32,806 nucleotides of DNA from a bacterium (GTDB lineage: Bacteria; AUK180). Position 1 is the first letter of the stretch; the number at the start of each line of letters is the position of its first letter. The notes under the pieces are model-generated. The model ran no database searches and was not told the DNA's origin. It worked only from the letters and a program-made list of their open reading frames with translations. Below, piece by piece: positions 10,215 to 16,138 of this stretch. Position numbers and translations under genes: made by a program. The DNA lies in the NCBI GenBank assembly GCA_021162505.1, contig JAGGYO010000124.1, positions 1 through 32,806 on the forward strand, read 5' to 3'.

Positions 10215-10440
10215 CTTTGCTCCTTTACTGTATTTTATAACAAATCTTAAAAAAAGTAAAGGGAAAAAACAAATACAATTGACAATGGTGGTTCATCTCC
10301 ATTTTAGTTGCTTGATTTCCCAATAAAACCCTGGTTACCATTGAGAACAAAGCAGTCTATATAGTGGGATTATATTTGGTCATTCCTGCGTTGTCAGTTC
10401 TCGAATCAGATGGGGGCGTAGAAATTCAGAAAACCAAAAA

Positions 10441-10473
10441 CTGGATTATCGGGTCAAGCCCGATAATGACGGG
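10441..10473. repeat. REP-like palindrome 1
   Basis: ctggATTATCGGGtcaagCCCGATAATgacggg; perfect 9-bp arms. Confidence 0.85.
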
Positions 10474-10516
10474 AAAAAAGATGCTGACAGAAAAAAAATA
10501 ATAATTGAAAAAAAAA

Positions 10517-10547
10517 TGGATTATCGGGTCAAGCTCGATAATGACGG
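10517..10547. repeat. REP-like palindrome 2
   Basis: tggattatcgggtcaagctcgataatgacgg; near-copy of 10441-10473, one arm mismatch. Confidence 0.85.
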
Positions 10548-10601
10548 AATGAGTGAGTAAAACCATTTGAACAAAGTACCATATTGGCGAAATGTTTTTC
10601 T

Positions 10602-10630
10602 CCGTCATTCCTGCGAAGGCAGGAATCCAG
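10602..10630. repeat. REP-like palindrome 3, opposite orientation
   Basis: ccgtcATTCCTGCgaaGGCAGGAATccag; same outer flanks (CCGTCATT...AATCCAG) as the reverse complement of repeats 1-2. Confidence 0.85.
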
Positions 10631-10668
10631 TAACTTTTATTTTTTTTTAAAATATATTATAATACATT

Positions 10669-11019
10669 ATGAATGGATGTGTCTATATAATAGCAAGTAA
10701 AAGAAATGGAACTATATACATAGGAGTTACTAATAATTTAATAAAAAGGATATAAGAACATAAAAATAATTTAGTGGGAGGTTTTACTAAGAAATACCGG
10801 GTTCATAACCTTGTTTATTATGAAGTATATGAACGAATTATAGATGCAATTGCAAGAGAAAAACAGTTAAAGAAATGGAAAAAAAGATGGAAAACAAATT
10901 TAATTGAAAAAAAAATCCAGAATGGTGAGATTTATATGAAGAAAGTGTTGCAATTTCCTTTTTTCCCTGTCATTCCGTGCTTGACACGGAATCTATCTTT
11001 GAAGGTTACCCCTCTCTAA
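10669..11019 (+). pseudogene. GIY-YIG nuclease-like gene (short, UvrC-like/YhbQ-like) with an in-frame stop
   Basis: Frame from ATG 10669 reads MNGCVYIIASKRNGTIYIGVTNNLIKRI*EHKNNLVGGFTKKYRVHNLVYYEVYERIIDAIAREKQLKKWKKRWKTNLIE; TAA at 10753-10755 where an aromatic residue is expected; the 3' end reads into REP-like repeat 4. Confidence 0.85.
10967..10993. repeat. REP-like palindrome 4
   Basis: ctgtcATTCCGTGcttgaCACGGAATct; perfect 8-bp arms, downstream of the GIY-YIG remnant. Confidence 0.8.
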
Positions 11020-11081
11020 TCCCCAACCTATGTTTTTCTATCCGCGGTTTAAAGAACACTATCTCGCAAAAAACTAATAAT

Positions 11082-11110
11082 TTGATTTATAATGCTAAAA
11101 GTGATAGAAT
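11082..11110 (+). promoter_or_regulatory. candidate promoter of micro-ORF A
   Basis: TTGATT (11082-11087) - 17 nt - TAGAAT (11105-11110) - 7 nt - ATG 11118. An alternative -10, TATAAT, lies at 11088-11093. Confidence 0.45.
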
Positions 11111-11117
11111 TAGATAT

Positions 11118-11216
11118 ATGAGAAAGAATAAAATCAGAATAATGAAAGGGCGGGTTGGAAAAAGAATAAGTCCATTAGAGAATTTAGAAATAGGGAGAGA
11201 TAGTAAATATCAGTAA
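11118..11216 (+). CDS. putative micropeptide A (32 aa, basic)
   Basis: MRKNKIRIMKGRVGKRISPLENLEIGRDSKYQ; aligns without gaps to micro-ORF B, and the upstream DNA is also similar. Confidence 0.35.
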   Translation: MRKNKIRIMKGRVGKRISPLENLEIGRDSKYQ

Positions 11217-11229
11217 AAGTTAAAGAAAA

Positions 11230-11259
11230 GTTTATACGAAGTTTCCTTCGGATATAAAC
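11230..11259. repeat. inverted repeat (hairpin) after micro-ORF A
   Basis: GTTTATACGAAG tttc CTTCGGATATAAAC; 12-bp stem with a 2-nt bulge. Confidence 0.5.
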
Positions 11260-11348
11260 AACTTAGCTATCTACCATTTGAAATATAAACTTGCGTTTCC
11301 CTAAATTTGATTATAATGCTACGAGATATTAATAAAAAAGAGGAAGAT

Positions 11349-11792
11349 ATGATACTAAAAAATTTTAACTCGCTAAATAAACCACCCTTGGAAGAAAAAC
11401 GCAACATAGTTGGTTTTATGTTTAATCATCTTGAAAAATTTAGTGATCCAAGAGCAGATATTGAAAAAGCTATTGATTATTCGTTACAAGAATATTCATC
11501 TTTTGGCGGTTTTGTTTTAATAGCAAAAAATGACAAAGAGATTATAGATGCAGTAGTTGTAAATCAGACAGGAATGAAAGATTATATTCCTGAAAATATA
11601 TTAGTTTACATAGCAATCCATGAAGACCACAGGGGAATAGGTGTTGGAAAACAAATATTGAAAAGATCAATAGAATTACCAGAAGGTGATATTGTACTAC
11701 ATGTTGAACCTGATAATCCAGCAAAATTTCTTTATGAGAAAGTCGGATTTACAAGCAAATATATTGAAATGAGATATAAAAAAGGAGAATAA
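11349..11792 (+). CDS. GNAT-family N-acetyltransferase
   Basis: YIAIHEDHRGIGVGKQILKRS (acetyl-CoA binding motif A), VEPDNPAKFLYEKVGF. ATG 11349 has an agagga SD; an alternative ATG at 11316 overlaps a TATAAT. Confidence 0.85.
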   Translation: MILKNFNSLNKPPLEEKRNIVGFMFNHLEKFSDPRADIEKAIDYSLQEYSSFGGFVLIAKNDKEIIDAVVVNQTGMKDYIPENILVYIAIHEDHRGIGVGKQILKRSIELPEGDIVLHVEPDNPAKFLYEKVGFTSKYIEMRYKKGE

Positions 11793-12871
11793 TGGCTTTT
11801 TTAACCTTAGATATAAAAAAATTAAAATTAAACTTTGATTATCTTAATACTCTTTTTAAAAAAAATAAGATTGAGTGGGCTGTTGTATCAAAAGTGTTAT
11901 GTGGAAATAAAAAATATTTAACTGAATTATTAAAATTTGACATAAATCAAGTATCAGATTCTCGTGTATCTAATTTAAAAGTAATAAAATCTATAAATTC
12001 TAAAATTAAAACAATATATATTAAACCACCGGCGAAGCGCTCTATTCCAAGTATTGTAAAATATGCAGATGTGAGCATGAATACTGAAATAGAAACAATT
12101 AAACTATTATCAGAAGAAGCCAAAAAGCAGAACAAAATTCATAAGATAATAATTATGATAGAACTTGGAGAACTTCGAGAAGGCGTATTAGGTGAACATT
12201 TAATTGATTTCTATGAAAGTGTTTTTAAATTAAAAAATATTGAAGTAATAGGACTTGGTGCAAATTTAGCTTGTTTGTATGGCGTTTTGCCAAATAATGA
12301 CAAATTAATTCAGTTAAGTTTATATAAACAGTTAATTAAAGCAAAATTTAACAAGCAAATACTTTATGTTTCAGGTGGTTCGTCAGTAACAATCCCTTTG
12401 ATATTTCAAAATCTTTTACCAGAAGGAATTAATCATTTTAGAGTAGGTGAAACATTATTTCTTGGAACAGATGTTTACAACAATAAAAAATTAAAAAAAA
12501 TGCACTCTGATGTATTTAGACTATACTCTGAAATAATCGAATTAATAGAAAAACCAATTGTTCCTATTGGTGAATTTGGGACAAATGTTGAAGGAGAAGA
12601 TTTTGAATTTGACCAAACCAATATTGGAGAAACATCGTACAGAGCAATTATTGATTTAGGTCTTCTTGACGCAGAGCCGGATCATCTTGGATTAATTGAT
12701 AAAAGCTTCAAATTTGCTGGTGCAAGCTCTGATATGATGGTAATTGATCTTGGTGAAAATAAGAAGAAATATAAAGTTGGAGACTTGATCAAGATTAAGT
12801 TAGATTATATGGGATTGCTTAGAATAATGAACTCTAAATATATTGAGAAAAGATTAAAAAACAGTAGTTAA
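11792..12871 (+). CDS. PLP-dependent fold-III racemase (alanine/ornithine racemase family)
   Basis: LDIKKLKLNFDYL..., WAVVSKVLCGN (PLP lysine region), VSGGSSVTIPL, NHFRVGETLFLG; start overlaps the GNAT stop. Confidence 0.85.
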   Translation: MAFLTLDIKKLKLNFDYLNTLFKKNKIEWAVVSKVLCGNKKYLTELLKFDINQVSDSRVSNLKVIKSINSKIKTIYIKPPAKRSIPSIVKYADVSMNTEIETIKLLSEEAKKQNKIHKIIIMIELGELREGVLGEHLIDFYESVFKLKNIEVIGLGANLACLYGVLPNNDKLIQLSLYKQLIKAKFNKQILYVSGGSSVTIPLIFQNLLPEGINHFRVGETLFLGTDVYNNKKLKKMHSDVFRLYSEIIELIEKPIVPIGEFGTNVEGEDFEFDQTNIGETSYRAIIDLGLLDAEPDHLGLIDKSFKFAGASSDMMVIDLGENKKKYKVGDLIKIKLDYMGLLRIMNSKYIEKRLKNSS

Positions 12872-12939
12872 AGGAACCTTTTCTAATTTTATTTGTGTTA
12901 TTTACACTATCTTATATTCGTGTAATTTGCAGGAATAAT

Positions 12940-12968
12940 TTGATTTATGAGATTAAATGTGTTATAAC
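12940..12968 (+). promoter_or_regulatory. candidate promoter of micro-ORF B
   Basis: TTGATT (12940-12945) - 17 nt - TATAAC (12963-12968) - 7 nt - ATG 12976; same layout as module A. Confidence 0.45.
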
Positions 12969-12975
12969 TAAGTGA

Positions 12976-13068
12976 ATGAGAATGTATAAAATCAAAAGAA
13001 CTAAAGAACAGATTAGGAAAATAAGAAGTCCATTAGACGATATGAAAGTGGATAAAGAGGATTTATGA
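12976..13068 (+). CDS. putative micropeptide B (30 aa, basic)
   Basis: MRMYKIKRTKEQIRKIRSPLDDMKVDKEDL; resembles micro-ORF A; stop overlaps the next ATG (ATGA). Confidence 0.35.
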   Translation: MRMYKIKRTKEQIRKIRSPLDDMKVDKEDL

Positions 13069-13271
13069 AAGAACAAATTTATTCTATGATAGAGATGCAT
13101 ATCCAACACAGTCGTGTATACGCCCAAAACAGAATTATATCCGACATTGTCGGATATAAAAAGTTATGTAAAATAAATTCAGAGCCCTTTATCAATAAAT
13201 ATATACCCCTCCAATTACTGTGTTCAATAATTGGTAATTTAAAATCTATCAATTTAGGTGATAACACATGA
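13065..13271 (+). CDS. putative 68-aa ORF linking micro-ORF B to the DUF1611 gene
   Basis: SD aaagagg before ATG 13065; both ends overlap neighbours by ATGA. No family recognised, and it contains palindromes, so it may be non-coding leader. Confidence 0.25.
   Translation: MKEQIYSMIEMHIQHSRVYAQNRIISDIVGYKKLCKINSEPFINKYIPLQLLCSIIGNLKSINLGDNT
13135..13159. promoter_or_regulatory. 25-bp palindrome upstream of the DUF1611 gene
   Basis: TTATATCCGACA t TGTCGGATATAA, perfect 12-bp arms. Confidence 0.6.
13211..13234. promoter_or_regulatory. hairpin 34 nt upstream of the DUF1611 start
   Basis: CCAATTA-10 nt-TAATTGG perfect 7-bp arms. Confidence 0.4.
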
Positions 13272-14350
13272 ACGCGAAAGCAATAGTATATTGCGAAAAT
13301 CAATTCGGGAAGATGGATGGAAAGATCACGAATGGACTTGTTAGGTACTCTAAAAAGTATGAGATTGTCGGTATTATTGACAGCTCAAAAGTTGGTATGG
13401 ACGCTGGGGAATATCTCGATGGAATAAAAAACGGGATACCGATATTCCATGACCTTGATGACGCTATTGAAAGGTTAGAGGAGCGTCCTAAATATTTTAT
13501 ATATGGCGTTGCACCCCTTGAGGCGTTTCTTACGAAGGAACAGCGGAATATAGTGCTCAAGGCTGTAGAAAAAGGGATGGATATAGTGAACGGCCTCCAT
13601 GAGTTCTTAACCCAGGATGAAGAGTTTATACGAAAAGCAAAGAAATATGGCGTCAAGATATACGATATTAGAAAGCCTCCGGCGAAAAAGGATCTTCATC
13701 TCTTCTCCGGGCGCATTCTTAAAGTCAATATACCAATAGTGACCATACTTGGCACAGACAGCGCAGTTGGAAAGAGAACCACTTCTGTACTACTTGCGGA
13801 AGCCTTGAAAAAAGAGGGTTTGAATGTTGCATTTGTGGCAACCGGCCAGACAGGATTGATTCAAGGTGCAAAGTATGGCGTTGCATTAGATGCCATTATA
13901 GAGGAATTTATGACAGGAGAGATCGAAAACACAGTTATGGAGGCATATGATACGGAAGATCCAGATATAATCATAGTTGAGGGCCAAGGCGCATTGAGCC
14001 ATCCAGCATACCTTAGTTCATGTGCTATTATACGGGGTGCGAGACCACGGGCAATCATAGTTCAGCACCCTCCGAAAAGAAAGAACATCGGAGATTTCCC
14101 CTATATACCAATGCCAACCCTGGAAAGTGAGATAGAGCTATTAGAGGTTTTTTCAAGATCAAAGGTAATTGCCATCACACTCAACCATGAAGATATGACG
14201 GATGAGGAGATCAAAGAGACCATAGCCGAGTATGAAAAAAAGCTCCAACTGCCAACGACAGATGCTCTAAAATATGGATGCAAAAAGCTTGTCAAAAGGA
14301 TATTCAAAGTATTTCCAGAATTACACTCATCTTTATCCCAAGACCTCTAA
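13268..14350 (+). CDS. DUF1611 family P-loop protein (DgcN-like, putative D-glutamate N-acetyltransferase family)
   Basis: VTILGTDSAVGKRTTSVLLAEALKKEGLNVAFVATGQTG, VEGQGALSHPAYLSS, RAIIVQHPPKR; SD AGGTGAT before the ATG. Confidence 0.85.
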   Translation: MNAKAIVYCENQFGKMDGKITNGLVRYSKKYEIVGIIDSSKVGMDAGEYLDGIKNGIPIFHDLDDAIERLEERPKYFIYGVAPLEAFLTKEQRNIVLKAVEKGMDIVNGLHEFLTQDEEFIRKAKKYGVKIYDIRKPPAKKDLHLFSGRILKVNIPIVTILGTDSAVGKRTTSVLLAEALKKEGLNVAFVATGQTGLIQGAKYGVALDAIIEEFMTGEIENTVMEAYDTEDPDIIIVEGQGALSHPAYLSSCAIIRGARPRAIIVQHPPKRKNIGDFPYIPMPTLESEIELLEVFSRSKVIAITLNHEDMTDEEIKETIAEYEKKLQLPTTDALKYGCKKLVKRIFKVFPELHSSLSQDL

Positions 14351-14762
14351 AAAGGGATAAAAAGGGTTATTTTTACTCTATCTAAAAACATTATTTCCCG
14401 GTATAGTTATAATTATATTTTCCCTTCTCTCTAAAATTCAACCGTAGTCCCCAAAAATTTCAAAAAAAATCGTGTAAATCGGGTTACATTCGTTATTCTC
14501 TTATTTTGGTATGATAAACTTGGGTTAGAACGAACAATTAAAAAATCAGTAAAATTAGGCGTTATGAAAAACGGTAAAAACAATTATTGTTTATCAATTT
14601 AGTATAGAATGACAGAAAATAAGTCAAAGGGCAAAGGTCTAATGTCCAAAATTGTGAATAGAAAGATAAAAAAACTTATGATTTGAAATTTGAGGTTTAG
14701 AATTTGAAATTTTTAATTGTTCTGCCATTTTTCGATAATCATTATTCACTTTTTACTTATTT

Positions 14763-14771
14763 TGGTATAAT
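14763..14771 (+). promoter_or_regulatory. extended -10 promoter of the MATE gene, possibly leaderless
   Basis: TGGTATAAT-aagca-ATG; only 5 nt between the -10 and the start codon, no SD. Confidence 0.5.
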
Positions 14772-14776
14772 AAGCA

Positions 14777-16138
14777 ATGAAAAACGGGAAAGAACCTAAA
14801 CTCATTCAAGGGAATGTCCAAAAAACCATATTAAAACTAACCTTTCATATGTTCTGGGGAATGGTCGCAATGGTAACATTTAATTTAGTGGATACATATT
14901 ATGTAAGTAGATTAGGTACAGACCAATTGGCGGCTATGGCATTCACATTTCCCATAATTATGATATTAAATGGAATTGCACTCGGTATAGGGACAGGAAC
15001 TTCTGCCGTTATATCGGTTGTTTTAGGCCGTGGAGATCACGAAGAAGCAGAGCGTTTAGCCACCGATAGCTTGAGCCTGGGATTCATAGTTGTCTTAATA
15101 TTTATTTTATTCGGTTATCTTACCATTGATCCGGTATTTAAAGCAATGGGAGCAAAGCCTGAAATACTTGCTTATATAAAAAAATATATGCTTATTTGGT
15201 ATGCCGGTGTTCCCTTTGTAGTATTTCCAATGATAGGCAATATGGCTATTCGAGCGACAGGGGATATGAAAACTCCGAGCTTTATTATGATCATGGCGGT
15301 CATAGTAAATATGATATTGGATCCATTATTGATATTCGGTATTGGTATTTTCCCCAAAATGGGTCTTTCCGGAGCTGCTCTTGCAACCGTATTTGCACGA
15401 TTTACCACATTTTCCTTATCATTATATGTACTTGGAATAAGATACAAATTGATAACCTTAAAAATTATTCCCCTAAAAAGAATCCTGCGCTCGTGGGGAA
15501 AGGTCTTGTATATAGGTCTACCCACTGCATTAATGAGGGTGATTCTACCATTGGGAATGGGGATAATCACCAGAATATTAGCGGGTTATGGAAAACACGC
15601 GGTTGCAGGATTTGGTATTGCTACCAGGATTGAATTTTTGGGTTTCACGGTTATAATTGCTCTCTCTTCCGTGATAGCTCCCTTTGTAGGTCAGAACTTA
15701 GGAGCAAAAAAGATAAATAGGATCAATGAAGGTGTAAGATTCAGCAATATCTTTTCTATTTTTTATGGATTGCTCTTGTTTATAATACTTGTTTTTTTGA
15801 GTAAACCAATTGCAATGCTTTTCAATAAAGACCCTAAGGTCATTTATGCCACAATGACATATTTAAAGATCGCTTCATTGGCTTATGGTCTCTACGGAAT
15901 AATGATCATAACGAATTCGGTATTAAATGTCATAAAAAAACCATATTACAGTGCCGGTATAATATTTACACAGATCTTTGTTCTTTATGTACCGCTTGCT
16001 TTTTTAGGATCGTATCTTTTTGGTTTAAAAGGAGTATTTATAGGTGCTTTTTTTGCATACGCACTTGCGGGCCTTTTGAGTTTGTTCATTGAAGGAAAAT
16101 TATTGCACAAACTTGAAATGAAAATTCTTGATACTTGA
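14777..16138 (+). CDS. MATE-family multidrug/Na+ efflux transporter
   Basis: About 12 hydrophobic segments; MFWGMVAMVTFNLVDTYYVSRLGTDQLAAMAFTFPI typical of MATE. Confidence 0.9.
   Translation: MKNGKEPKLIQGNVQKTILKLTFHMFWGMVAMVTFNLVDTYYVSRLGTDQLAAMAFTFPIIMILNGIALGIGTGTSAVISVVLGRGDHEEAERLATDSLSLGFIVVLIFILFGYLTIDPVFKAMGAKPEILAYIKKYMLIWYAGVPFVVFPMIGNMAIRATGDMKTPSFIMIMAVIVNMILDPLLIFGIGIFPKMGLSGAALATVFARFTTFSLSLYVLGIRYKLITLKIIPLKRILRSWGKVLYIGLPTALMRVILPLGMGIITRILAGYGKHAVAGFGIATRIEFLGFTVIIALSSVIAPFVGQNLGAKKINRINEGVRFSNIFSIFYGLLLFIILVFLSKPIAMLFNKDPKVIYATMTYLKIASLAYGLYGIMIITNSVLNVIKKPYYSAGIIFTQIFVLYVPLAFLGSYLFGLKGVFIGAFFAYALAGLLSLFIEGKLLHKLEMKILDT

Follow-up and report, generated by a model that had tools for sequence, protein, structure and literature searches.

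The window analysed here, which is the whole stretch of 32,806 nucleotides, contains two look-alike blocks on the forward strand (W1 and W2), each made of a promoter-like sequence and a short open reading frame and each followed by accessory genes: a GNAT acetyltransferase and an alanine-racemase-like PLP enzyme behind W1, and a DUF1611 gene behind W2 (Table 1). When the window's own genome was searched with each block, 11076-11179 and 12934-13037 aligned without gaps over 104-105 bp at 75% identity (E ~1e-13); a repeat search of the blocks gave 125 nt at 71%, and beyond the partner block either query returned only short, weak matches. The initial annotation had described two such blocks at these positions, with the layout TTGATT-17-TAGAAT/TATAAC-7-ATG and ORFs of 32 and 30 codons, and our analysis agrees with it on both counts. 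Seven bases separate the -10 hexamer from the ATG in W1 and W2 alike, and, judging from this spacing, both starts are probably leaderless. The further proposal of a third, shorter copy ahead of the GNAT gene (TTTGATTATAATGCTA, 11306-11321) did not hold up: some 16 bases are common, with one deletion, there is neither a peptide nor a -10 element at the proper spacing, and the stretch is absent from the block-1 search results in the own genome; we rejected it as too short to be a module copy. Also rejected as copies were promoter-only matches in the same genome (L002, L006, L010 and L013), which resemble the organism's ordinary promoter consensus. An Rfam scan of the whole window gave no match.

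Table 1. Features of the two modules and of the genes behind them, in window coordinates.
Feature	Position	Strand	Details
W1 promoter	11076..11117	+	AATAATTTGATTT...; -35 TTGATT 11082-11087, spacer 17, -10 TAGAAT 11105-11110; from sequence, kept in all copies
W1 integrase remnant ORF	11118..11216	+	MRKNKIRIMKGRVGKRISPLENLEIGRDSKYQ, 32 codons; ATG 11118, stop TAA 11214-11216; based on family alignment and coding test, with integrase C-terminal homology via longer copies
W1 att-like site	11230..11268	+	hairpin GTTTATACGAAG/CTTCGGATATAAAC, then ACAACTTAGC; core GTT changed to CTT; likened to Bacteroidota attI
GNAT acetyltransferase, cassette gene	11349..11792	+	Pfam PF13508, PF00583
Alanine-racemase-like PLP enzyme, cassette gene	11792..12871	+	Pfam PF01168
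W2 promoter	12934..12975	+	-35 TTGATT 12940-12945, spacer 17, -10 TATAAC 12963-12968; from sequence and conservation across copies
W2 integrase remnant ORF	12976..13068	+	MRMYKIKRTKEQIRKIRSPLDDMKVDKEDL, 30 codons; ATG 12976, stop TGA 13066-13068
Att-spanning ORF2	13065..13271	+	68 aa; start overlaps the remnant stop (ATGA), frame runs through both hairpins, TGA overlaps the DUF1611 ATG (ATGA)
W2 att-like site	13097..13159	+	two hairpins: 13097-13123, imperfect; 13135-13159, TTATATCCGAC-ATT-GTCGGATATAA, 11 bp perfect
W2 recombination core GTTATGT	13163..13169	+	identity to G002:C25 shifts here, from 58% to 90-94%
DUF1611 cassette	13163..14350	+	5' UTR from the core, gene 13268-14350; homology to G002 stops at 14324

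Two neighbouring features deserve mention in their own right. The stretch 10676-10960 reads as a gene for a GIY-YIG endonuclease interrupted by a stop in its frame (...NNLIKRI*EHKNN...), beside dispersed palindromic repeats at 10436-10650, and a 30-base direct repeat (80%) with TTATTTTGGTATRATAA, at 14488-14517 and 14744-14773, possibly represents duplicated promoters ahead of a MatE-like gene at 14777.

A homology search of related genomes, which the initial annotation had proposed as a check, uncovered many further copies. When 60 relatives were searched in translation with the second peptide, five matches aligned from the start turned up in G002, a genome of the same family as the window's own, and one in G005, which belongs to the same class; the genome set holds seven genomes of this class. 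Eight copies were aligned over 125 columns, promoter included, at a mean column identity of 80%. A sequence model of eight copies recovered 13 in G002, four in G005, two to four in G001 and, besides marginal further matches, the two with clear E-values in the window's genome; it found no copies in 186 genomes outside the class. The module is a class-specific, multicopy one, and the tandem module-gene-module layout that W1 and W2 form here is also present at G002:C169, G005:C46 and G001:C92.

The short form has the consensus MKKYKIKITK-x-QI-GKIVSPLD-x-M and, taken alone, corresponds to no NCBIfam family. At G001:C95 and G002:C65 (MKKYEIKIIKERIEFNKIQELLEHRSSKTTEIYTHVSNKSLRSIMNPLDNLNKGG...), two longer copies share this N-terminus and the promoter but run into the end of a tyrosine recombinase. 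Both match TIGR02249, the former at model positions 281-313 of 315 (E 5e-10) and the latter at positions 278-315 of 315 (E 1e-7), and both score better with this model than with XerC/D models; the top PDB match of the G001:C95 copy is 2A3V, the structure of the V. cholerae integron integrase. The window's genome holds three further integrase fragments, namely two C-terminal ones at C294 (E 1e-16) and C110 (8e-15) and an N-terminal one at C90 (2e-11), and the end of the C110 fragment, LGKIVSPIDTINLNKG / VSRKNLGKIVSPIDTINLNKG, is the micropeptide core. DNA similarity between short copies and the G002:C65 copy amounts to 70% over 152 bp (E 7e-10; L104/L109), in a stretch that spans the integrase 3' end, the stop and the att site. 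W1 and W2 are themselves too short for any model match, and we assign them to the integrase through a chain of DNA and peptide alignments that leads from the short copies to the longer ones and from these to TIGR02249. The initial annotation knew of no named family for the peptide; relatives do exist, and the alignments argue strongly that it joins the N-terminal tip of an integron-type tyrosine recombinase to the C-terminal one, with SPL[DE] read as the final residues of an integrase that has lost its interior. The same deletion junction occurs in copies from three genera and two families.

Beside the cassettes, the integrase is present as remnants only (family members match TIGR02249 with E 1e-7 to 1e-16). 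Searches of the class with TIGR02249 and the C294 fragment returned fragments and ordinary Xer proteins but no full-length parent carrying the MKKYKIKITK N-terminus, and no TIGR02249 match in the class lay above the curated cut-off. As to the origin of the N-terminal half, one of six proteins tried, an integrase of Persicobacter with RIRLTKLQIR at its start, shows a likeness (shuffle p 0.006) that is suggestive only. The fragments at C294, C110 and C90 of the window's genome (G000; L151, L152 and L153) form a second set of decayed integrase pieces; of these, C294 and C110 share a different promoter, TTGAC...TATAAAAT...ATGTAATGTTAAACGA, and have the same anatomy as the modules: remnant, hairpins, GTT core and gene.

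Purifying selection on the peptides, another check suggested earlier, could be assessed on the eight short copies. Thirty changes from the consensus were synonymous against 18 expected (p 4e-4), in a test that assumes a star tree and with one further copy, c06, frameshifted. None of the eight contains a stop (p 0.025), the ATG is kept in all of them (p 0.013), NG86 dN/dS is ~0.32, and changes at third positions are in excess (p 0.05). Copies that are broken or without a peptide comprise c13, c17 and c21 in addition to c06. The coding constraint could in part be older than the truncation.

The remnant stop is succeeded by one or two hairpins, variable in sequence but constant in shape (e.g. TATATCCGAA..TTCGGATATA), and then by an att-like core, AAACAAGTTRTRT / AAACAAGTTATATG or close variants. 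A generic hairpin-plus-GTT scan gave 8 hits against 2-3 under the null in 176 kb, which is mildly above the null, and recovered only some of the sites; we do not count it among the main evidence. No U-tract follows the W2 hairpin, and we rejected an attenuator reading on this ground. The downstream boundary of the site emerges from comparing W2 with c04, the module copy at G002:C25 (L104) that carries the DUF1611 cassette of W2. The promoter and peptide parts of the two are 75% identical and their genomic surroundings differ; from the alignable peptide end to the core, identity is 58%, whereas it is 90.5% from the core to the ATG, which is noncoding, and 94% in the gene. Since the DUF1611 protein is 93% identical between the window's genome and G002, which belong to different genera, and a housekeeping gene adjoining a Xer gene is only 60% identical, we conclude that the DUF1611 cassette has moved; by this alignment, DUF1611 is a gene cassette with its boundary exactly at GTT 13163. 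A second cassette (CAAX protease type), found in two places in G002, shows 43% identity before and 84% after GTTAGCC, the sequence that precedes it in G002:C25. Chryseobacterium and Persicobacter psychrovividus have ATATAAACAAGTT after the stop of the integrase. Identity between two Chryseobacterium integrons is 95% as far as the G of this GTT and 46% beyond it, a drop that places their crossover at G^TT. An attI-type G^TT crossover is thus marked by identity jumps at GTT both in W2/c04 and between the two Chryseobacterium integrons, and W1 is degenerate (CTT).

For W1, a comparison with Bacteroidales GNAT-racemase loci is uninformative as to the site, since DNA likeness begins inside the GNAT gene (at 11392-11445 in the best cases); an integrase C-terminus was not found in these loci. 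The racemase shares 75-84% of its residues with proteins of Bacteroidales and Saprospiraceae, which we read as horizontal transfer. The 3' ends of the GNAT-racemase and DUF1611 cassettes show no clearly recognisable attC, and the DUF1611 homology ends inside the gene. Further genes behind modules encode a type IIG restriction enzyme, a DNA methylase, SIR2, a nucleotidyltransferase, a papain-like protease and radical SAM proteins, and the gene set as a whole is typical accessory cargo. Defence-type proteins are abundant behind the modules of relatives (type IIG restriction enzyme, DNA methylase, SIR2, PDC-S11 and nucleotidyltransferase at L101, L102, L105, L108 and L116), and a cassette gene, MI[IT]EKLSENEKLVDVINSMH..., is 90% identical in DNA between two genera in which it sits in different arrays (G000:C296, L118, and G002:C169, L103).

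The earlier description of a micro-gene marking each transcription unit is right in that a promoter and short ORF recur at the head of accessory units; what marks them is not duplication alone, the unit being a landing platform with inserted cassettes. The term 'mobile micro-element' likewise pointed in the right direction, with the functional unit extending beyond the stop into the att-type hairpins and the GTT core.

At W2, a second ORF connects the remnant with the cassette, and c04 (L104) has a matching ORF of 70 aa at the same position. Counting as bridging any ORF that starts on or near the remnant stop, crosses the att hairpins and ends between -30 and +25 bases from the cassette start, we found one in 7 of 13 modules, with W2 among them and W1 not, compared with 2.1 expected from dinucleotide shuffles of the intervening DNA (7 was reached in 0/1000). 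Without c04, whose cassette is common with W2, the count is 6/12 (p 0.003); c01 and c07 have hairpin sequence in common, so that the bridging cases are not all independent. The overlap of the ORF2 start with the remnant stop is mostly ATGA or GTGA, all seven TGA-ending remnants end in one of these two ways, and both joints are ATGA in W2 and C294. The intact integron of Rufibacter has the same ORF chain; those of Chryseobacterium, Pontibacter and Persicobacter have no such chain.

We consider it highly probable that the blocks are decayed, dispersed integron heads whose remnant ORF would give captured genes both a promoter and translational coupling, like ORF-11 of class 1 integrons; their identity as integron heads is the strong element of this reading. 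Each block would be the relic head of an integron with its integrase gene pointing toward its own attI and cassettes, and would retain the intI promoter, the first ~13 and the last ~11-18 codons of intI (the rest having been deleted) and an attI-type site of one or two hairpins and a GTT core, into which DUF1611 was inserted at W2 and, presumably, GNAT-racemase at W1. Since intI and the cassettes are codirectional, the old intI promoter would now transcribe the cassette, from a start at the ATG or slightly upstream of it. The remnant ORF would be translated first, probably as a leaderless one; ribosomes would terminate at the overlapping ATGA or GTGA, reinitiate on the second ORF, open the att hairpins and be delivered to the start codon of the cassette. 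The copies carry a promoter-like sequence, homology to integrase ends, hairpins, a core and a cassette boundary at that core, and we infer that the remnant ORF is kept for ribosome entry and reinitiation toward the cassette. The module functions like, and descends from, an integron head, and is not to be filed as a complete integron: no IntI lies above the cut-off and no attC was recognised behind the window's cassettes. As the class's seven genomes yielded no intact integrase of this type, the platforms there are probably immobile or reliant on a recombinase from elsewhere.

That the heads are simply dead, their ORFs functionless pseudogene stumps and the promoter alone of consequence, retains an appreciable minority probability. 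Several copies are frameshifted, broken or peptide-less (c06, c13, c17, c21), the intact integrase was not found in the class, and intI pseudogenes are common, amounting to nearly a third in one survey (PMC2426708). Against this stand the synonymous excess (p 4e-4), the kept start (p 0.013) and the absence of stops (p 0.025) in the eight short copies, the presence of the same truncated form in two families, and the greater frequency of bridging ORF2s than in shuffles. The tandem layouts (W1-W2, G002:C169, G005:C46 and G001:C92) would also suit another arrangement, in which the module is the 3' end of a mobile cassette comprising gene, promoter, integrase stump and attI-type site, is multiplied by attI-by-attI exchange, and lets cassettes carry the promoter for the next gene; delta-attI cassettes are reported for mobile integrons (PMC12901181). 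We regard this arrangement as unlikely, in that the copies are mostly single in the stretches read, c04 adjoins opposite-strand genes, and we found no unit, excised or shared, with a module at its end.

The free-standing duplicated micropeptide gene of the initial annotation (a regulator, leader peptide or toxin-like product) would fit the coding constraint and the start, ~30-codon length and SPL[DE] core kept in eight copies. It becomes improbable once the same N-terminus and promoter are seen to join an integrase C-terminus in G001:C95 and G002:C65, rather than defining an independent family; these longer copies, like C110 and C294, have the SPL[DE] core as their integrase C-terminus, the DNA homology runs past the stop into the att sites, and the short form alone lacks an NCBIfam entry. 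Least probable of all, and largely refuted by the cassette boundary at the GTT core, is a MITE- or REP-type transposon-like repeat with an outward promoter and a coincidental likeness to integrase: the modules are multicopy and dispersed and possess hairpins, and other dispersed repeats abound in the genome around 10436-10650, but neither terminal inverted repeats nor target-site duplications were noticed, and the integrase homology is significant and in frame.

If the blocks are indeed decayed integron heads that still serve captured genes, the integron persists as a set of expression platforms after loss of its integrase, with the recombinase reading frame apparently reused to translate what was captured. 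This putative reuse of an integrase stump as a leader is to us the interesting part. It offers a route by which foreign genes, GNAT-racemase and DUF1611 here and restriction-modification, SIR2 and other defence-type genes in relatives, gain expression in a poorly known lineage. More tentatively, and at somewhat under even confidence, we propose that a dying integron was turned into dispersed expression platforms in which a constrained leaderless start ORF of ~30 codons and ORF2 load ribosomes onto the captured gene, that the module spread with its cassettes, and that its source lies among the little-described, patch-less XerA-like integrases of Bacteroidota arrays.

Among known systems, the modules share with the codirectional integrons of the Treponema denticola type an intI that reads toward attI and the cassettes and an attI R site with GTT; in Treponema, intI is transcribed toward attI, and T. 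brennaborense has GTTAGGT between intI and the first attC (PMC3607928). They differ in that intI is cut down to its two ends, that many dispersed heads carry one or two genes each, and that neither an attC array nor an intact intI was seen. The codirectional layout holds in all modules checked and in the intact Bacteroidota relatives, that is, in arrays of Chryseobacterium (NZ_CP041688, NZ_CP094530), Rufibacter (NZ_CP012644), Pontibacter (NZ_CP111080) and Persicobacter plasmids, where the integrase ends in S-P-[LF]-D (SPFDDL, SPLDNL, SPLDQW) and is transcribed toward one-strand cassettes; in Chryseobacterium and P. psychrovividus, as here, the integrase is followed by ATATAAACAAG^TT. Unlike the modules, these arrays retain a complete integrase that carries an N-terminal extension, HARP-like or other, and in Rufibacter attC-like palindromes (expected form RYYYAAC ... 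GTTRRRY) were seen by eye between cassettes. Against TIGR02249 the closest intact relatives align in two separate stretches, of which the first ends at 179-180, and reach 193-207 bits, below the cut-off of 265; they lack the stretch holding the IntI-specific domain (the patch) and score best as XerA-like, and for this reason the source integrase lineage may be of a non-canonical kind. Integron-like arrays with codirectional integrases, a gap at the IntI patch and XerA-like scores, some with HARP-like N-terminal extensions, are present on Bacteroidota plasmids (L179, L180, L182 and L183). Patch-less codirectional Bacteroidota integrases are thereby indicated, and integron finders that depend on the IntI patch may miss patch-less integrases.

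The closest parallel for the proposed coupling is found in class 1 integrons, where ORF-11 in attI1 couples translation to the cassette and a similar role has been proposed for short ORFs in attC (review PMC8876359). Like ORF-11, ORF-17 and ORF-18, the ORFs described here are small, lie over attI and end near the start of the first cassette, whose translation they would couple. In attI1, however, the ORF is unrelated to the divergent intI, whereas here the leader would be the residue of intI itself, with a probably leaderless start, joined by a second ORF across the hairpins. Finally, the modules resemble intI pseudogenes and CALINs in that a working integrase has been lost beside cassettes. 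While CALINs keep their attC clusters and lose the head, here it is the head, with its promoter, intI ends and attI, that has been kept and multiplied.
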